Under the pieces are notes generated by a model, which searched no databases, was not told the DNA's origin, and worked only from the letters and a program-made list of their open reading frames with translations. The position numbers were made by a program, and so were the translations under genes. A stretch of 64,000 bases of DNA from Nocardia wallacei (lineage in GTDB: Bacteria > Actinomycetota > Actinomycetes > Mycobacteriales > Mycobacteriaceae): the NCBI RefSeq assembly GCF_014466955.1, contig NZ_AP023396.1, forward strand, positions 2,852,001 to 2,916,000. The letters run 5' to 3'. Below, one piece after another: positions 48,632 through 55,130 of this stretch (within the stretch, counting starts at the first letter, position 1; the number at the start of each line of letters is the position of its first letter).

Positions 48632-49978
48632 ATGTCGTTGCTGGATATCGCATCGGCGGACGAGCGCCGGGCGCGACGCGAACCGGAACAGCCGCTCGCA
48701 GCCTCGGACACGCGCACGGCGATCGTGGCGAGCCTGATCGGCACGACTGTGGAGTGGTACGACTTCTTCCTCTACTCCACCGCGGCGGGCATCGTCTTCG
48801 ACAAGCTGTTCTTTCCCAACACCAGCGCCTTCGTCGGCACCATGCTGTCGTTCGCGACCTTCGCGGTGGGTTTCGTGATGCGTCCGGTCGGCGGTCTGGT
48901 CTTCGGGCACGTCGGCGACCGCATCGGCCGCAAGCGCACCCTCGCGCTGACCATGGCGATCATGGGCGGCTCCACGGCGCTGATGGGTGTGCTGCCCACC
49001 AGCGCCGCCATCGGCATCGCCGCGCCGATCCTGTTGCTGGCGTTGCGGATGCTGCAGGGCTTCGCCCTCGGCGGTGAGTGGGCCGGTGCGGTGCTGCTGG
49101 CCGTCGAGTACAGCCCGCGCCGCAAGGTCGGGCTGTTCGGCAGTTATCCGCAGGTGGGGCTGGCGCTGGGCCTGGCCCTGGGCACGGGCGTCTTCGCGCT
49201 GCTGCGGACGGTGCTGAGCGAATCGGCGTTCCTCGATTACGGCTGGCGAATCGCCTTCGGTGCCAGCGTGGTGCTCGTCGTGATCGGGCTGGTCGTCCGG
49301 TTGAAGATCGACGAGACGCCCGCGTTCCGCGAGATCGACCGGCTCAACCGGATCTCGAAAGTGCCCGTGGTCGAGTTGTTGTTCCGCAACCTGCGGACCC
49401 GGCGCAACACCGTGCTGGGGTTGCTGTCGCGGTGGGGTGAGGGCGCGGCGTTCAACACCTGGGGCGTCTTCGCCATCGGTTTCGCCACCGGGCATCTCGG
49501 GTTCCGGCAGGTACCGGTGCTGACCGCGGTCACCATCGCCGCGTTGGTGATGGCAGCGCTCATTCCGGTGTCGGGGCGGCTGACCGACCGCTACGGTCCG
49601 CGCCGCGTCTACACCGTCGGGATCGCCGCGTACGGGCTGCTGGTCTTTCCGGTGTTCGCGCTGTTCGAAGTCGGCGACATCGTGGTCTTCACCCTCGCGA
49701 TCATCGCGGTGTTCGGGGTGGCGCACGCGCTGTTCTACGGTGCGCAGGGCACGCTGTACGCGGGTCTGTACCCGCCCGAAGTGCGTTACACCGGACTGTC
49801 TTTCGTCTATCAGGTGTCGGGCATCTACGCCTCGGGCATCACGCCGATGATCGTCACCGCGCTGATCGCGGCAGCGGGCGGAACACCGTGGCTGGCATGC
49901 GGCTACCTGGTCGCGACAGCGGTCGTCAGCGTCATCGCCACCCTGTTCATCAGCGAGGACGACCGCCTCACCGCCTGA
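48632..49978 (+). CDS. MFS metabolite:H+ symporter (MHS family)
   Basis: A 448-residue, 12-helix transporter of the shikimate/ProP/KgtP family. Signature stretches: SLIGTTVEWYDFFLYSTAAG in helix 1, FGHVGDRIGRKRTLALTMAI (motif A), GGEWAGAVLLAVEY and GLFGSYPQVGLALGLALG. Family members import organic acids, betaines or aromatic acids with protons. GAAGGAAGGGGCAAC precedes ATG 48632. Likely regulated by the divergent TetR at 47816. The substrate is not predictable. Confidence 0.88.
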   Translation: MSLLDIASADERRARREPEQPLAASDTRTAIVASLIGTTVEWYDFFLYSTAAGIVFDKLFFPNTSAFVGTMLSFATFAVGFVMRPVGGLVFGHVGDRIGRKRTLALTMAIMGGSTALMGVLPTSAAIGIAAPILLLALRMLQGFALGGEWAGAVLLAVEYSPRRKVGLFGSYPQVGLALGLALGTGVFALLRTVLSESAFLDYGWRIAFGASVVLVVIGLVVRLKIDETPAFREIDRLNRISKVPVVELLFRNLRTRRNTVLGLLSRWGEGAAFNTWGVFAIGFATGHLGFRQVPVLTAVTIAALVMAALIPVSGRLTDRYGPRRVYTVGIAAYGLLVFPVFALFEVGDIVVFTLAIIAVFGVAHALFYGAQGTLYAGLYPPEVRYTGLSFVYQVSGIYASGITPMIVTALIAAAGGTPWLACGYLVATAVVSVIATLFISEDDRLTA

Positions 49979-50042: not shown

Positions 50043-51392
50043 CTACCGCCTCGAATAGCGCCTACTCGTCGGAATGCAGAAATATGATGTCGGTAGCTCC
50101 CCGAACAAGTGCTGAACTACCTCGCGGGTGGGCTTTATCGCGGCGAAGGGAGATCCGGGAACTGCGGTGCACATACGCGCATGTATCGACTGCTGCAGCT
50201 CTATCTGCTCATCTTCGAAAGCGACAGACCGCGATACCAGCGTCGTCAATTGCGTGACTTCGGCGGCTGTCGGTGCGAGCGCACGGATGCCGCTGGTGTA
50301 CAGGAATTCCATCGCGTAGTCGTTCCGATCTGAGTCCTCGATCGTGTACGAAGGATCGAGTAGCCGGTCCGTCATGCGCGCTCTCAGATCAGCACTGACC
50401 AGCGCGACAGCTCCGCGCAGCATGAGCTCGCCGGAGCTGCCGTCGAGGAGCCGCAGCTGTGGTTGCGATTTCATGCCGAAGCCGTTGTCGCCGTGGCGCT
50501 CGAAATGTTGCTCGATCAGACGAGTTGACGGCCGCGGCATCCTGTTCAGGGGGCCGGCGGCGAGAATCGAATGCAATCGCCGACCTAGTTCGCGTCCTCT
50601 GATTGCGCAGGCGATCGTCGTGAGATTGAAGTCGGCGACAGCCCGGGCGTAGGCCGAGAAGGCGGGCCAGTCGATCGGAGGCAAAGCGGTCTGCTCCGAT
50701 TCGTCACCCGGCGGCCCTGGGTGGGCCATGAGTCGATGCACAACCTCATCGATCAGTTTCGGTGGTCCCGCGCAGACTTCGGTGCCGCTTCTACCGACCA
50801 GAAGGCCGTGCTGTTCGGCGTAGTCCACGAACTGTCGGGGAGTCACCACAACCTTGTCGAACACTCCGCCGCGGCCGACCGCATCGAGAAGCATCGTCTT
50901 GGCGGTTCCGAATACGCCGGCCAGCATCTTGTGCAGCGCCGCCAAACTCGGTGGTACTGCGTGGTTTTCGACATCGGCACGGGAATGCGCGTAGTACGCG
51001 GGCAACTGTTGGCCGAAGTAGGAGATCCGGGCTACATCGAGAAGTGTGGATTCCTGTTCGGGGCCGGCGTCGCGGTAGTACGCCGCGCGGAGAAGCTGCA
51101 CCAGGCGGCGTACTTCTGCCCAGTTCGCGGTGAGACCACGTAATGCACTGACATTCATCGGCAGTCCGGAGTGGACCCTACTGCCCGGATAGCGACAGGT
51201 TTCGTACCGGGTGTGTACCTGGCACCGTGTGTCAGAACCGGAACGGATCTCGCCGACCGGCCGTCCTTGTGTATCGAGCCAGTCATCGACTTCACCGGTG
51301 AGGAACGACCGATAGCCGTCGAGGTCGCACAGGGGGCCGGGTGCGGAGGGCACCTGGTGTTTGCGGATCGGTCGATCCTCTTCGATGGTCAT
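50043..51392 (-). CDS. 449-residue protein of unknown family
   Basis: A soluble, mainly helical protein with no signal peptide or membrane segment. Recognisable stretches: NWAEVRRLVQLLRAAYYRDA, PPSLAALHKMLAGVFGTAKT, DKVVVTPRQFVDYAEQHGLL and GRSGTEVCAGPPKLIDEVVH. A basic N-terminal part (~50-80) carries cysteines (RCQVHTRYETCRYPGSRVHS). I recognise no family or catalytic motif. It lies 12 bp after the double-cupin gene, clearly in one operon with it, and in AT-richer sequence than the flanks. Codon use is less GC-biased than its neighbours, suggesting acquisition by transfer. ATG 51392 has only a weak ribosome site, which fits coupling to the gene before it. Confidence 0.7.
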   Translation of the reverse strand: MTIEEDRPIRKHQVPSAPGPLCDLDGYRSFLTGEVDDWLDTQGRPVGEIRSGSDTRCQVHTRYETCRYPGSRVHSGLPMNVSALRGLTANWAEVRRLVQLLRAAYYRDAGPEQESTLLDVARISYFGQQLPAYYAHSRADVENHAVPPSLAALHKMLAGVFGTAKTMLLDAVGRGGVFDKVVVTPRQFVDYAEQHGLLVGRSGTEVCAGPPKLIDEVVHRLMAHPGPPGDESEQTALPPIDWPAFSAYARAVADFNLTTIACAIRGRELGRRLHSILAAGPLNRMPRPSTRLIEQHFERHGDNGFGMKSQPQLRLLDGSSGELMLRGAVALVSADLRARMTDRLLDPSYTIEDSDRNDYAMEFLYTSGIRALAPTAAEVTQLTTLVSRSVAFEDEQIELQQSIHARMCTAVPGSPFAAIKPTREVVQHLFGELPTSYFCIPTSRRYSRR

Positions 51393-51404
51393 CAGCGGGC
51401 CGGG

Positions 51405-52727
51405 TTATCGTTGGAGCAACTCGGATCCACCGCCGTCGGCGTGGATCTTGCGGAGCGCGACCTTGACCGTTCGTCCGTCATCGTCGGACACGAACATCGT
51501 TGCGGGCGTGGAGCTGACCGCTGGGGCATTCGCCAGATACCGGCGCTGTCGATCGGCAAGGGTCCGATAAAAAGCGAACTCGAAATCCGCCGGACTGATC
51601 TCGAATGTGGGAGCCGGTCTTTTCGACAGTGGCCAGTCGATGACGTCGTTACCCGGTTCGAACACGGTCGGATCGCCAGCGCATCGTCGTGGCCGGTTGA
51701 CCGTGAAGACGTTCTCCATACCTGCTGGTGCGTGCGCAACACCCGCGGGTATGACCATTGCCCGCAGAGGGGAAGGCTTGAACGTGTACACCAACTCGGC
51801 GTGGTAGGTCGGCGAATCTCGACGGCAGTCGATAAATCGCATCTCGACGGACTGGTCCAACGGGCCGAGGAAGGTCAGGCGGTCCTCCCACTCCAAATGT
51901 ATTCCGTATGCGTCGGTCGCGTAGGGCGATGTACCGTGATCGATCACCTGGACAGGAGCGGGATCGGTCAGGGCAACGTAACCCGCATCGTCGCCCGACC
52001 AGACCGCCAAGTGCCGACTCCACCCGAGGCCATGTATACCGTCGATCTGCTCCCATTCCGGTACCCGCTGCTGATGCGTCAACCTCTTCCTGATCATGAG
52101 CGTCGACACTGTTCCGTCGGGGAGGGTCACTTCTTCTGTGAACGGATATTCATGATCCACCGACCCGAGCGTTTCGGACTGCATCCTGCTCAACAGCTCG
52201 TAAAACCTCGGGGAAGCAGGATAGGGATTCGGATCGGCGATCGGGAGTTCCTCGTCCGCGCTGTCGAGTGGGAAGTTGAGAATGTCGGCCCCCGTTGCCC
52301 ACGGGTTCTTATCGGTCATCAAAACGTCCGGCGGCGGAAGATAAGCACGGAAGGTGTTCAGAGTGAAAACGCCATCCAAGTCGTCGAAGCAGTGCCCGAC
52401 GCCGCACGGTATACGTAGCGTTCGCGAAACGCTCGGATGAAACGTCAGGTCGACTTTTCGGTGAAACGTCGGAGAGTCACGTCGACAGTCCACGAAGTGA
52501 CCGGTCGCGGTCTTCTCGCGCGAGCCGAGAAAGGTGAGACGGTCTTCCAATCCGAGATGGAACCCATAATGCCCGTGGGAGAAGGGTTGCTCACCGTGAA
52601 ATACGATATGCACCAGGTCCGAGGTCGGAAACGGGACGACAACGGACTCGCGACCGTTTTCGAGAGTATGGGTATCAAGCCATTCGAGGCCATCGATACC
52701 TGTCGGCACAGCTCGAGGTGAAGTCAC
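51405..52727 (-). CDS. internally duplicated RmlC-like cupin protein
   Basis: A 440-residue protein made of two homologous units of about 210 residues. Paired landmarks: YGFHLGLEDRLTFLG / YGIHLEWEDRLTFLG, FVDCRRDSPTFH / FIDCRRDSPTYH, LRIPCGVGHCF / MVIPAGVAHAP, FYELLSRMQ / FYRTLADRQ and STLMIRKRL / KVALRKI. The DxRRxSPT-to-IPxGxxH stretch matches dTDP-4-keto-6-deoxyhexose 3,5-epimerase (RmlC)-like cupins, but the usual GLHxQ catalytic His motif is not evident. Each unit also has a ~90-residue C-terminal extension. The function may be a sugar epimerase, a metal-dependent enzyme or a binding protein. GTG 52727 follows GGAGGTTGACAA. Middle gene of a three-gene operon. Confidence 0.75.
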   Translation of the reverse strand: MTSPRAVPTGIDGLEWLDTHTLENGRESVVVPFPTSDLVHIVFHGEQPFSHGHYGFHLGLEDRLTFLGSREKTATGHFVDCRRDSPTFHRKVDLTFHPSVSRTLRIPCGVGHCFDDLDGVFTLNTFRAYLPPPDVLMTDKNPWATGADILNFPLDSADEELPIADPNPYPASPRFYELLSRMQSETLGSVDHEYPFTEEVTLPDGTVSTLMIRKRLTHQQRVPEWEQIDGIHGLGWSRHLAVWSGDDAGYVALTDPAPVQVIDHGTSPYATDAYGIHLEWEDRLTFLGPLDQSVEMRFIDCRRDSPTYHAELVYTFKPSPLRAMVIPAGVAHAPAGMENVFTVNRPRRCAGDPTVFEPGNDVIDWPLSKRPAPTFEISPADFEFAFYRTLADRQRRYLANAPAVSSTPATMFVSDDDGRTVKVALRKIHADGGGSELLQR

Positions 52728-52768
52728 TTGTCAACCTCCGCGAAGGTGGGCGTAGGGGCCGCATCGGC

Positions 52769-52797
52769 CCGCCGCCCCCTGGAACGGGGTGCGGCGG
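52769..52797 (-). terminator. hairpin between first and second genes of the three-gene cassette
   Basis: CCGCCGC-CCCC (52769-52779) pairs with GGGG-T-GCGGCGG (52786-52797), 11 pairs with one bulge and a short loop, starting 24 bp after the stop of the 135-aa gene. No U run follows, so it may be a partial terminator or mRNA-stability element that gives more of the first product than of the next two. Confidence 0.5.
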
Positions 52798-52820
52798 ACC
52801 AATATCCGATATCCGACAGA

Positions 52821-53228
52821 TTATCGACCGACCACGGTACGTGGCAGTGATTTCGCGTCGCCGGGATCCAGCACGTCGACCTGATAGCCCTGGGCCCTGG
52901 CCGACTCGATCAGGTCGTTCAAATTCTGTTCCGGGAACAGCTCAGTGAATTTTGCCACCACTTCCGACTTGATATTCATCAGCGCGGCCGCCGTCAATGC
53001 GGTCTTGGCTCCGGAATCCACCTCGGGTGTGGTCATCACATGATTCAGCATCAGCACCCCGAGTGCTTTGTCGCCGGCCGCGACATCCTTACCAGCGACC
53101 GCGCCGGGCGCGCTGACGCGCGCGACCAATCGGATCGCGGCACCTTCGAATGCGCCGAGATCCGGGGCCACGGATTCGTCATAGAGCGACCCGAAGAACC
53201 GCTTCGCTTGTTCGACTTCCAGGGACAT
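52821..53228 (-). CDS. 135-residue helical protein, first gene of the three-gene cassette
   Basis: ATG 53228 is set by a strong GGAGGG site 8 bases upstream; a longer frame to 53261 lacks one. Start MSLEVEQAKRFFGSLYDESV. The protein is helical and soluble throughout with no cysteine. The C-terminal part NLNDLIESARAQGYQVDVLD has a loose likeness to Nif11-type leader peptides (helix, then A-x-GY and an acidic turn), but this is weak. No family recognised. A hairpin after its stop and the separate ribosome site of the next gene suggest that it is made in excess over the two downstream proteins, as expected for a substrate, carrier or structural component. Inference only. Confidence 0.65.
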   Translation of the reverse strand: MSLEVEQAKRFFGSLYDESVAPDLGAFEGAAIRLVARVSAPGAVAGKDVAAGDKALGVLMLNHVMTTPEVDSGAKTALTAAALMNIKSEVVAKFTELFPEQNLNDLIESARAQGYQVDVLDPGDAKSLPRTVVGR

Positions 53229-53531
53229 GTTTTTCCGCCCTCCGTGAAAAGGAATCAGCATTGCTTACTTGCCCTAAACAGAGACCGGCTACTCGGTACG
53301 AACTGACACTATCTCGGGCGACAAGCCCAGGCGCGCAGCCCTTCTCCATGTCGGCACCATCTACCAAGAACTTCTCATTGGACGCGTCCGAGACCAGTAT
53401 CGCACAAGAATCGCCCGGTATGGCAACAACAATCTGCATTCTTTGCGGAGTCGAAAAAGACCTTGTTTCTCGTGGATGTAATAGTCGGTCGTCCGTGTGG
53501 AACCGAGGTCGGCCTGTGGCGGCAGTGAGGG
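53229..53531. other. upstream region of the three-gene cassette, no gene supported
   Basis: About 300 AT-richer bases between the cassette and the protein mannosyltransferase gene. It must hold the cassette promoter, but I cannot fix a -35/-10 pair. A minus-strand frame from ATG 53439 to 53179 exists but has no ribosome site and overlaps the well-supported 53228 start. Confidence 0.45.
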
Positions 53532-55130
53532 TCAGCGCCAGCTGGGGAGCCAGAGGTGGTCGAGCCAGGCGGCGGGGGTGATGGGGTAGGCGGTGAGGAT
53601 GGGCCATAGCCAGATGAAATCGGCTACCACTATGCCGAGGTAGAGGGAGATGGCCAGGAGGGTGAGGGTACGTCTTTCGGTGCGGGGCAGGGTTGTTCGG
53701 CCGTCGGGGGTGCGGGTGGTGGGGGCGGGGCCGAGGATGTCGGCGAGGGTCAGGGCCAGGCCCATGGCCAGGAAGGGGGCCAGGGGGACGGCGTAGAAGT
53801 AGTACATCTGGCGGTCGAGGTTCAGCAACCACGGGAGGATTCCGGCGCAGTAGCCGACGAGGACGGCGGCGTAGCGCCAGTCGCGGCGAGTCGTGCTGCG
53901 CCACAACGCCCACGACAGCATGGGTAGCGACAGCCACCACAGGGCGGGCGTGCCGATCAGCATCACGGCCTTGACGCACGCGGGTTCGCCGCAGTTGCCG
54001 GTCGCGCTGTCGGAATAGTGGAACAGCATGGGGCGCAAGCTCATCGGCCACGACCACGGTTTGGATTCCCAGGCGTGATGATTGCCCGCCGAATTCGTCA
54101 GGCTCGCATGGAAATTCAGTGATTCTCCGTGGTTGTGCCACAGCGAACGCAGCGCGTCCGGCAGCCACGACCAGCTGCCGCCGACACCGATCGTGCCCTT
54201 CCCGGCGGCGGGATTGCCGACCGAATACCGGTCGTAGCCGTCCTCGCTCGCGAACCACGCGCCATAGCTCGCGAGGTAGACCAGCAGCGGAACGACAACG
54301 AGCGCGTACAACGCGGGACCGACATCGCGCACGGCGGTACCCGCCCACGGCCGCGGCACCCCGTAGGCGCGGCGCGCGGCGACATCGAAGCACACCGACA
54401 GCAGGCCGAACGCCGCGACGAAATACAGCCCGGACCATTTCGTCCCGCACGCCAACCCGAGCAGCACCCCACCGCCGAACCGCCACCACCGCACACCGAG
54501 CCGTGGACCGAACCCGCTCACCGCGATGCGCCCTTCGGCGTCGGCGCGCGCCAACCGGCACCGGACCTCGTCGCGATCCACGACCAGGCAGCCGAACGCG
54601 GCCGTGACGAACACCGCCTGGAAGATGTCGAGCATGCCGATGCGCGAGGCGACGAAGCTGGTGCCGTCGCAGATCAGCAGCAGGCCCGCGATCGCGCCGA
54701 TCATCGTGGAGCGCGTCAGCCGCCGCGTGATGCGAATTACCAGCAGTACCAACACCGTTCCGAAGACCGCCGCGGTGAACCGCCAGCCCCACGGCGTGTA
54801 GCCGAACACGATCTCACCCAGTGCGATCAGCTGCTTGCCGACCGGCGGGTGCACGATCACCCCGTAGGCCGGGTTGTCCTCGACGCCGCTGCCGGTGAGC
54901 ATCTCCCACGCTTGGTGGGCATAGTATTTCTCGTCGAAGGTCGGGGTGCCGCCGTCGGTGGGATAACCCAGGTTCAGCAGCCGGGTGACCGCCGCCATCG
55001 TGGTGAGGACCACGGTGACCAGCCAGCCGCGCAGGCTGTCGGCAGGACCGAAATCGGGAGTGGGCCGTAGCGGCGCCGGACTGGACGGCGCCGGGCCGAT
55101 GGCCGCTCGCGCGTCGGTCAGCTGGGGCAC
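53532..55130 (-). CDS. pmt: protein O-mannosyltransferase (Pmt, GT39)
   Basis: A 532-residue, multi-helix glycosyltransferase. The first extracytoplasmic loop carries GGTPTFDEKYYAHQAWEMLT, with the catalytic DE pair; VIVHPPVGKQLIALGEIVFG and FVASRIGMLDIFQAVF follow. The C-half has the FNFHASLTNSAGNHHAWESK-like loop (here SLNFHASLTNSAGNHHAWES) and LDRQMYYFYAVPLAPFLAMG. Homologue of mycobacterial Rv1002c, which transfers mannose from polyprenyl-phosphate-mannose to secreted proteins. In mycobacteria the gene lies next to rsmI; here it is divergent from an ArnT-like glycosyltransferase, with 119 bp between starts. Confidence 0.88.
   Translation of the reverse strand: MPQLTDARAAIGPAPSSPAPLRPTPDFGPADSLRGWLVTVVLTTMAAVTRLLNLGYPTDGGTPTFDEKYYAHQAWEMLTGSGVEDNPAYGVIVHPPVGKQLIALGEIVFGYTPWGWRFTAAVFGTVLVLLVIRITRRLTRSTMIGAIAGLLLICDGTSFVASRIGMLDIFQAVFVTAAFGCLVVDRDEVRCRLARADAEGRIAVSGFGPRLGVRWWRFGGGVLLGLACGTKWSGLYFVAAFGLLSVCFDVAARRAYGVPRPWAGTAVRDVGPALYALVVVPLLVYLASYGAWFASEDGYDRYSVGNPAAGKGTIGVGGSWSWLPDALRSLWHNHGESLNFHASLTNSAGNHHAWESKPWSWPMSLRPMLFHYSDSATGNCGEPACVKAVMLIGTPALWWLSLPMLSWALWRSTTRRDWRYAAVLVGYCAGILPWLLNLDRQMYYFYAVPLAPFLAMGLALTLADILGPAPTTRTPDGRTTLPRTERRTLTLLAISLYLGIVVADFIWLWPILTAYPITPAAWLDHLWLPSWR

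Follow-up and report, generated by a model that had tools for sequence, protein, structure and literature searches.

A possibly RiPP-like three-gene cassette around a tandem RmlC-like cupin, apparently acquired by Nocardia wallacei

Among the ribosomally synthesised and post-translationally modified peptides (RiPPs), the proteusin type with its Nif11 or NHLP leaders resembles the locus analysed here in that a long helical leader-like protein is encoded beside would-be modifying enzymes. A Nif11/cupin/epimerase group has been predicted in Synechococcus (PMC10783134), a cupin-4 protein occurs together with NHLP in sponge symbionts (PMC9426513), and the pbs cluster for a biphenomycin-like RiPP combines an MFS (major facilitator superfamily) gene with a cupin-fold enzyme acting on a peptide, the JmjC-like hydroxylase PbsQ (PMC12257519). 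The word “cupin” occurs nowhere in the main text of PMC12636437, and no published description of the gene pair or trio described below was found in open-licence PMC text. The locus consists of three minus-strand genes at positions 50043 to 53228 of a 64,000-nucleotide stretch of Nocardia wallacei DNA (contig NZ_AP023396.1, positions 2,852,001 to 2,916,000; hereafter the window), which is part of a host genome of 7.9 Mb in two contigs. We give an even chance to the reading that these genes form an acquired operon of the RiPP type, in which the small first protein would be the substrate and a tandem cupin and a 449-residue protein its maturases.

The layout described in the initial annotation is present in the sequence, with three open reading frames (ORFs) in order, a 12-bp gap between the last two and a strong hairpin past the first stop codon. 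Gene 1 (52821..53228, minus strand) encodes P0001 of 135 amino acids (aa), called from the ORF list and from its relatives upstream of the cupin, and the strong ribosome site ascribed to it is found as the ribosome-binding-site-like GGAGGGCGG (53235..53243, minus strand) ahead of the start at 53228. An alternative start at 53261 would give 146 aa, and the relatives start at the equivalent of the 135-aa start. The frame of the proposed “helical protein” thus stands, and its helical character comes from a poor structure model of low confidence. Gene 2 (51405..52727, minus strand) starts with GTG and encodes the 440-aa P0002, assigned through PF00908 as a tandem RmlC-like cupin and proposed core maturase. 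Gene 3 (50043..51392, minus strand), whose ATG lies 12 bp behind the cupin stop codon, encodes the 449-aa P0003, the proposed second maturase. The annotation had placed it in no recognised family, and scans with Pfam and NCBIfam agree, giving no family for P0003, nor for P0001, up to E 10.

Judged from sequence, the cassette probably modifies its own small first protein chemically and turns it into a peptide-derived product. Gene 1 would supply the helical substrate, probably in excess, and its body of about 120 residues would be recognised by the enzymes; the tandem cupin would be the core maturase, and the gene 3 product would be a second enzyme, optional, that either works on a 15-residue tail or docks to it. 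Export would fall to an MFS pump in most relatives; the window cassette has no pump of its own. The DNA itself shows that genes 1 and 2 are constantly paired, that two other genomes hold the three genes in this order, that the composition is foreign, that a hairpin is present, that the tail goes with gene 3 and that candidate site residues are kept in both halves of the cupin; we infer the role of the gene 1 product as substrate, its modification by P0002 and P0003 and the release of a product. The locus is unlike the proteusin type in that P0001 matches neither Nif11 nor NHLP and in that the maturase would be a tandem RmlC-like cupin. The Nif11 family (PF07862) gave a match to one of 27 aligned small proteins, with 13.3 bits against a cut-off of 23.8, and none to P0001; a weak likeness to Frankia_peptide (PF14407, Franean1_4349) was seen in 6 of the 27, five times in the C-terminal stretch, with a best score of 19.5 bits against a cut-off of 48 and again none for P0001. 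The MNIO (multinuclear non-haem iron-dependent oxidative enzyme), the B12-dependent radical S-adenosylmethionine (SAM) enzyme and the arginase reported for the pbs cluster were not recognised in the cassette by the Pfam and NCBIfam scans.

The cupin is regularly paired with the small protein. A plasmid search with P0002 matched nine records, four of which (Pantoea, Chimaeribacter and two Proteus records) held the cupin in one piece over 95% of its length, and the three of these four sets that were examined had an 87-aa protein upstream of the cupin and an MFS gene downstream. The plasmid cupins were aligned with P0002 to form the query for a scan of 84,980 species genomes, which yielded at least 26 loci with a duplicated RmlC-like cupin, a lower bound because the scan used two exact peptide patterns. 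The loci belong to Enterobacterales, Pseudomonas, Streptomyces, Streptacidiphilus, Actinomadura, a Pseudonocardiales metagenome-assembled genome (MAG), Arthrobacter, Pedobacter, a Methylocystis MAG and Janthinobacterium. In all 25 loci with upstream DNA, the cupin has directly upstream of it a small protein belonging to a single related set, the locus L033 being cut off and left out of this count; the weakest single tblastn link among these proteins (L017, E 0.081) aligns plainly with other actinobacterial forms. An MFS gene follows within 0.7 kb downstream of the cupin in 22 of the 26 loci (that of L016 is of the EntS/drug-efflux kind), a member of the P0003 family takes its place in two, and both Pedobacter loci have neither after the cupin. 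By sequence the conserved unit is therefore genes 1 and 2, with gene 3 as a rare partner standing where 22 of 26 relatives have the MFS gene, and the original pairing of gene 3 with gene 2 is to be corrected in this sense. The system is rare: the cupin profile found one other carrier, a distant relative (L075/L077), among 394 genomes of the class, and none among 298 other genomes of the phylum of the Methylocystis MAG. In such large searches few candidates were scored per genome, mostly four (P0003 and the cupin profile in the class, and the order of Janthinobacterium), up to six in the phylum just named and up to eleven in one of two genus searches, and the absences are for this reason weaker than those of the other genus search.

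The surroundings of these loci hold several further features. Two Streptomyces plasmids (L007:4517-10265 and L008:7420-11883) carry distant cupins with proteins of 85-94 aa and MFS genes, two such sets adjoining each other in L007. The distant set of L077 is comparable, with duplicated or paired cupins and other small proteins, MFS genes being noted in the plasmid sets. L007, L008, L018 and L077 also have in common a LuxR/TrmB-like regulator and a second conserved protein, about 94 aa long. Seven of the 26 loci (L013-L019, six actinobacterial loci and L019) have a gene for a TPR (tetratricopeptide repeat) protein no more than 5 kb from the cupin. On the Pantoea piersonii plasmid (L004:14866-17248), about 5.5 kb downstream of the set, the annotation gives an HlyD family protein and a peptidase-domain ATP-binding cassette (ABC) transporter, a combination used for double-glycine peptides. 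Five Proteus records from four species (L006, L027 and L029-L031, about 7.6-10.5 kb) share one conserved site with the same neighbour families, and the set has therefore long been resident there. Interrupted cupin frames in Arthrobacter sp. AZCC_0090 (L020:8013-9287) and an Erwinia MAG (L034), and an MFS frame in two pieces in Proteus penneri (L029:9266-10442), reflect decay or sequencing error.

All three genes in the window order were found in two bacteria only distantly related to the host, Janthinobacterium fluminis (L019) and the Methylocystis MAG (L010). The initial annotation had named a lack of such co-occurrence elsewhere as what would tell against a joint system, and since the three families co-occur in both genomes, in the same order, it came through this test. 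Identity to the window is 61% for P0001 in both, 62% (L010) and 59% (L019) for the cupin, and 28% (L010) and 35% (L019) for P0003. The last 4 bp of gene 3 in L019 are shared with a TPR gene, and the cassette there lies between a thioesterase gene and a polyketide synthase (PKS) gene, both on the opposite strand. The gene 1 products of precisely these three cassettes end in a tail of 15 residues, xxxAxxxPR(S/T)V(V/I)GR, which is missing in the other 24 of the 27 aligned small proteins; in the window it is DPGDAKSLPRTVVGR, encoded by codons 121-135 (52824..52868, minus strand), with its end conserved as PR(S/T)V(V/I)GR in the alignment. The tailed small proteins are thus exactly those whose cassettes carry the P0003 family. 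Of 21 genomes or records scanned with a profile of that family (20 of the 26 cupin loci plus one plasmid record), three gave a match, namely L010, L019 and the Burkholderia arboris plasmid record L003, and no other match came from 349 genomes of the order of Janthinobacterium; P0003 itself was found in no other of the 394 class genomes. The relative in L003 (21% identity) stands in a record with no recognisable P0001 or P0002, beside a Cupin_8 enzyme, a metallo-beta-lactamase-fold protein, a nonribosomal peptide synthetase (NRPS, C-A-T) and a thioesterase (L003:2024-10639). Residues invariant over four relatives include Cys66, Arg72, Asn80, Ser82, Trp91, Glu193, Arg201 and Cys207; hydropathy gives no membrane span for P0003, and its structure model was too poor for naming a fold.

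The sequence composition points to a foreign origin. The G+C content is 0.610 in the block and 0.703 in the remainder of the window, where every non-overlapping stretch of block length reaches at least 0.682. The G+C content at third codon positions (GC3) is 0.728 for gene 1 (0.714 with the longer start), 0.683 for gene 2 and 0.707 for gene 3, against a mean of 0.863 (standard deviation 0.032) for 40 other ORFs of the window. The hand counts that had first drawn attention to the block, 33 of 60 at 52141-52200 and 45 of 60 at 49081-49140, are exact, the block stands out from its flanks, and the lower G+C expected of it is borne out in both measures relative to the window, which was the comparison in place of the whole chromosome. 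P0001 and P0003 each occur in one of 150 genus genomes, the window's own, and are without a match in the 149 others; this genus-wide search covered genes 1 and 3. In a tree of 20 of the 30 cupin rows the window cupin groups with those of Methylocystis and Janthinobacterium, with 100/100 support and separately from the six actinobacterial cupins included. In four related genomes the DNA match to the window goes no further than the stop codon of the MFS gene next to the cassette, and a different contig carries the relative of the protein mannosyltransferase on its other flank; neither repeats nor a tRNA were found at the cassette as marks of insertion. As suggested earlier, and given the foreign composition, the absence of genes 1 and 3 from the 149 other genus genomes and the cupin grouping, the cassette looks horizontally acquired. 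The flanking MFS gene (48632-49978) was considered as a further member and rejected: it is 86-89% identical in six related genus genomes, in a genus set that holds P0001 and P0003 solely in the window's genome, and its metabolite/H+ symporter type was also counted against membership. The protein mannosyltransferase gene on the other side (53532-55130) has a second copy in the genome with 77% identity (G000:C1:1092193-1093767).

The duplication of the RmlC-like cupin is seen in two stretches of P0002 that match the superfamily PF00908 (dTDP_sugar_isom) with 37.5 bits, above the cut-off of 27. RmlC is dTDP-4-dehydrorhamnose 3,5-epimerase, and “dTDP-4-dehydrorhamnose 3,5-epimerase family protein” is the public label of the cupin, which shares with it the region VDxRxxSPT...PxGxAHxF (profile against 2b9u, E 1.5e-8). 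P0002 differs from RmlC as a fused two-domain tandem, constantly paired with a small protein and far under the cut-off for the equivalog (TIGR01221, 29 bits against 155.75), and by score it is not an RmlC equivalog. A role of the cupin as nucleotide-sugar epimerase, with the cassette as part of glycan synthesis, therefore seems very unlikely to us; it would make the adjoining protein mannosyltransferase meaningful. The PF00908 score and that neighbour do fit it, but besides the equivalog score the constant partner is a small protein, followed by an MFS gene in 22 of 26 loci, and the four related genomes have the mannosyltransferase-like gene and the MFS neighbour on different contigs. Six residues of the first half (H57, D62, D80, R82, H112, D148) and six of the second (H277, D282, D300, R302, H332, D361) are invariant in all 27 cupin rows counted, out of 30, the interrupted L020 and L034 (used elsewhere as they are) and the truncated L033 being left out. 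RmlC catalysis uses a His-Asp pair and a Tyr acid. The candidate catalytic His and Asp are thus invariant, but the profile alignments to PDB entries stop short of the first His. The kept His, Asp and Arg residues are compatible with RmlC-type acid-base chemistry and also with a two-His-one-carboxylate metal site.

A possible attenuator or processing stem lies between genes 1 and 2 (52762..52804, minus strand). The 103-nt stretch 52728-52830 folds with -52.3 kcal/mol (z -3.26), none of 200 shuffles being as stable, and it is not a textbook intrinsic terminator because no T-run stands behind the stem. When the 70 nt from the small-gene stop codon were folded uniformly in 29 rows, 22 reached z <= -2, compared with 0 of the controls within the small gene, 1 within the cupin and 7 upstream (Wilcoxon p < 1e-4 against each of the three controls, values that are too good because the rows are related and two species occur twice, L005/L023 and L006/L027). 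The hairpins of different loci are unlike in sequence. Stems of this kind often lower downstream expression, and gene 1 is therefore probably made in excess, like a substrate; if the gene 1 product must outnumber the enzymes, a hairpin placed directly behind the small gene, as in 22 of the 29 rows, would be expected. Excess expression would also suit an antitoxin, and in L004 and L005 the small protein is publicly labelled “XRE family transcriptional regulator”, with a weak HTH_37 likeness in 2 of the 27 small proteins. Still, we consider either role, DNA-binding regulator or antitoxin, extremely improbable for the small protein: the HTH_37 score is below the cut-off (L015, 13.9 against 27 bits), some actinobacterial sets have separate regulators, and PADLOC gives one weak match (P0001, E 0.02).

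The substrate reading has its main difficulty in how strictly the small protein conserves its C-terminal half, and it is for this reason that we put the reading no higher than even. Between L004 and L035 this half shows 14 synonymous and no nonsynonymous codon changes, so that by sequence it is under strong purifying selection, and the untailed small proteins end with a conserved helical domain and no obvious core. This fixed half and the missing core in the untailed forms count against a classical RiPP, and conservation of this kind would be just as natural for a fixed product, a scaffold or a partner subunit. Further points weigh on the same side. The scans of P0001-P0003 recognised the cupin alone, and neither a protease nor an enzyme of a known RiPP class (LanM, YcaO, radical SAM, MNIO, ATP-grasp and others); the likeness to RiPP leaders is far under the cut-offs; and the structure models of P0001 and P0003 are both poor. 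Neither of the two closest relatives, L010 (z 0.47) and L019 (z 1.40), has the hairpin, and at 70 nt it is also absent from L006, L016, L018, L021 and L026, while seven upstream controls pass too; with longer stretches L016 and L018 pass, L017 drops out, and L019 and L026 still fail.

The conserved half and the missing core in the MFS-type sets would both be at home if the small protein were a fixed partner (subunit, chaperone or scaffold) of a tandem cupin that makes a free small molecule for MFS export, and partner pairs in constant order suit a complex. We hold this to be rather unlikely, for the hairpin between the two genes speaks for unequal expression and the tail varies with gene 3. 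In the pathways of pyrroloquinoline quinone and mycofactocin, residues are modified in and cut out of a scaffold protein, and the small protein might likewise be a constant scaffold from which one or a few modified residues are excised as the small-molecule product. Tyr16 and Lys87 are invariant in all 27 small proteins, and conserved sequence plus exporter fit a fixed small product, but neither a radical SAM enzyme nor a peptidase was recognised in the cassette, the flanking genes of the other loci being partly classified, and this explanation appears to us distinctly improbable.

A substrate with its maturases remains the simplest way to join the constant pairing, the probable unequal expression, the exporters and the tail. 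A precursor-like gene, its precursor role being a prediction, lies beside the maturase candidate in 25 of 25 loci, MFS genes follow in 22 of 26, and the same trio recurs in L010 and L019. The neighbours of P0003 relatives include an NRPS (L003) and, where the whole cassette is present, a PKS (L019), actinobacterial sets have regulators, and for cupin-fold enzymes and an MFS gene as parts of RiPP clusters there are precedents in print (PMC12257519, PMC9426513). The proposal that the first protein is a substrate or carrier, made initially from this one sequence, gains indirectly from the constant cupin pairing, from the hairpin in most loci and from a tail that tracks gene 3. A bolder version can be offered only tentatively, namely a new class of ribosomal peptide or protein modification, spanning Actinomycetota, Pseudomonadota and Bacteroidota, in which fused RmlC-like cupins act on a polypeptide, for example by backbone epimerisation or another proton transfer, and P0003, with relatives also near NRPS and PKS genes, founds a family of enzymes modifying the tail that ends in PR(S/T)V(V/I)GR.

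If the substrate reading is true, a rare and widely scattered pair now labelled as an XRE regulator and an epimerase would be a peptide-maturation system, and a fold known for sugar epimerisation would be a maturase fold new to such chemistry. The chemistry of the P0003 family may be visible in the NRPS locus of Burkholderia arboris, and from the way the tail goes with gene 3 a site of action for the second enzyme can be predicted.

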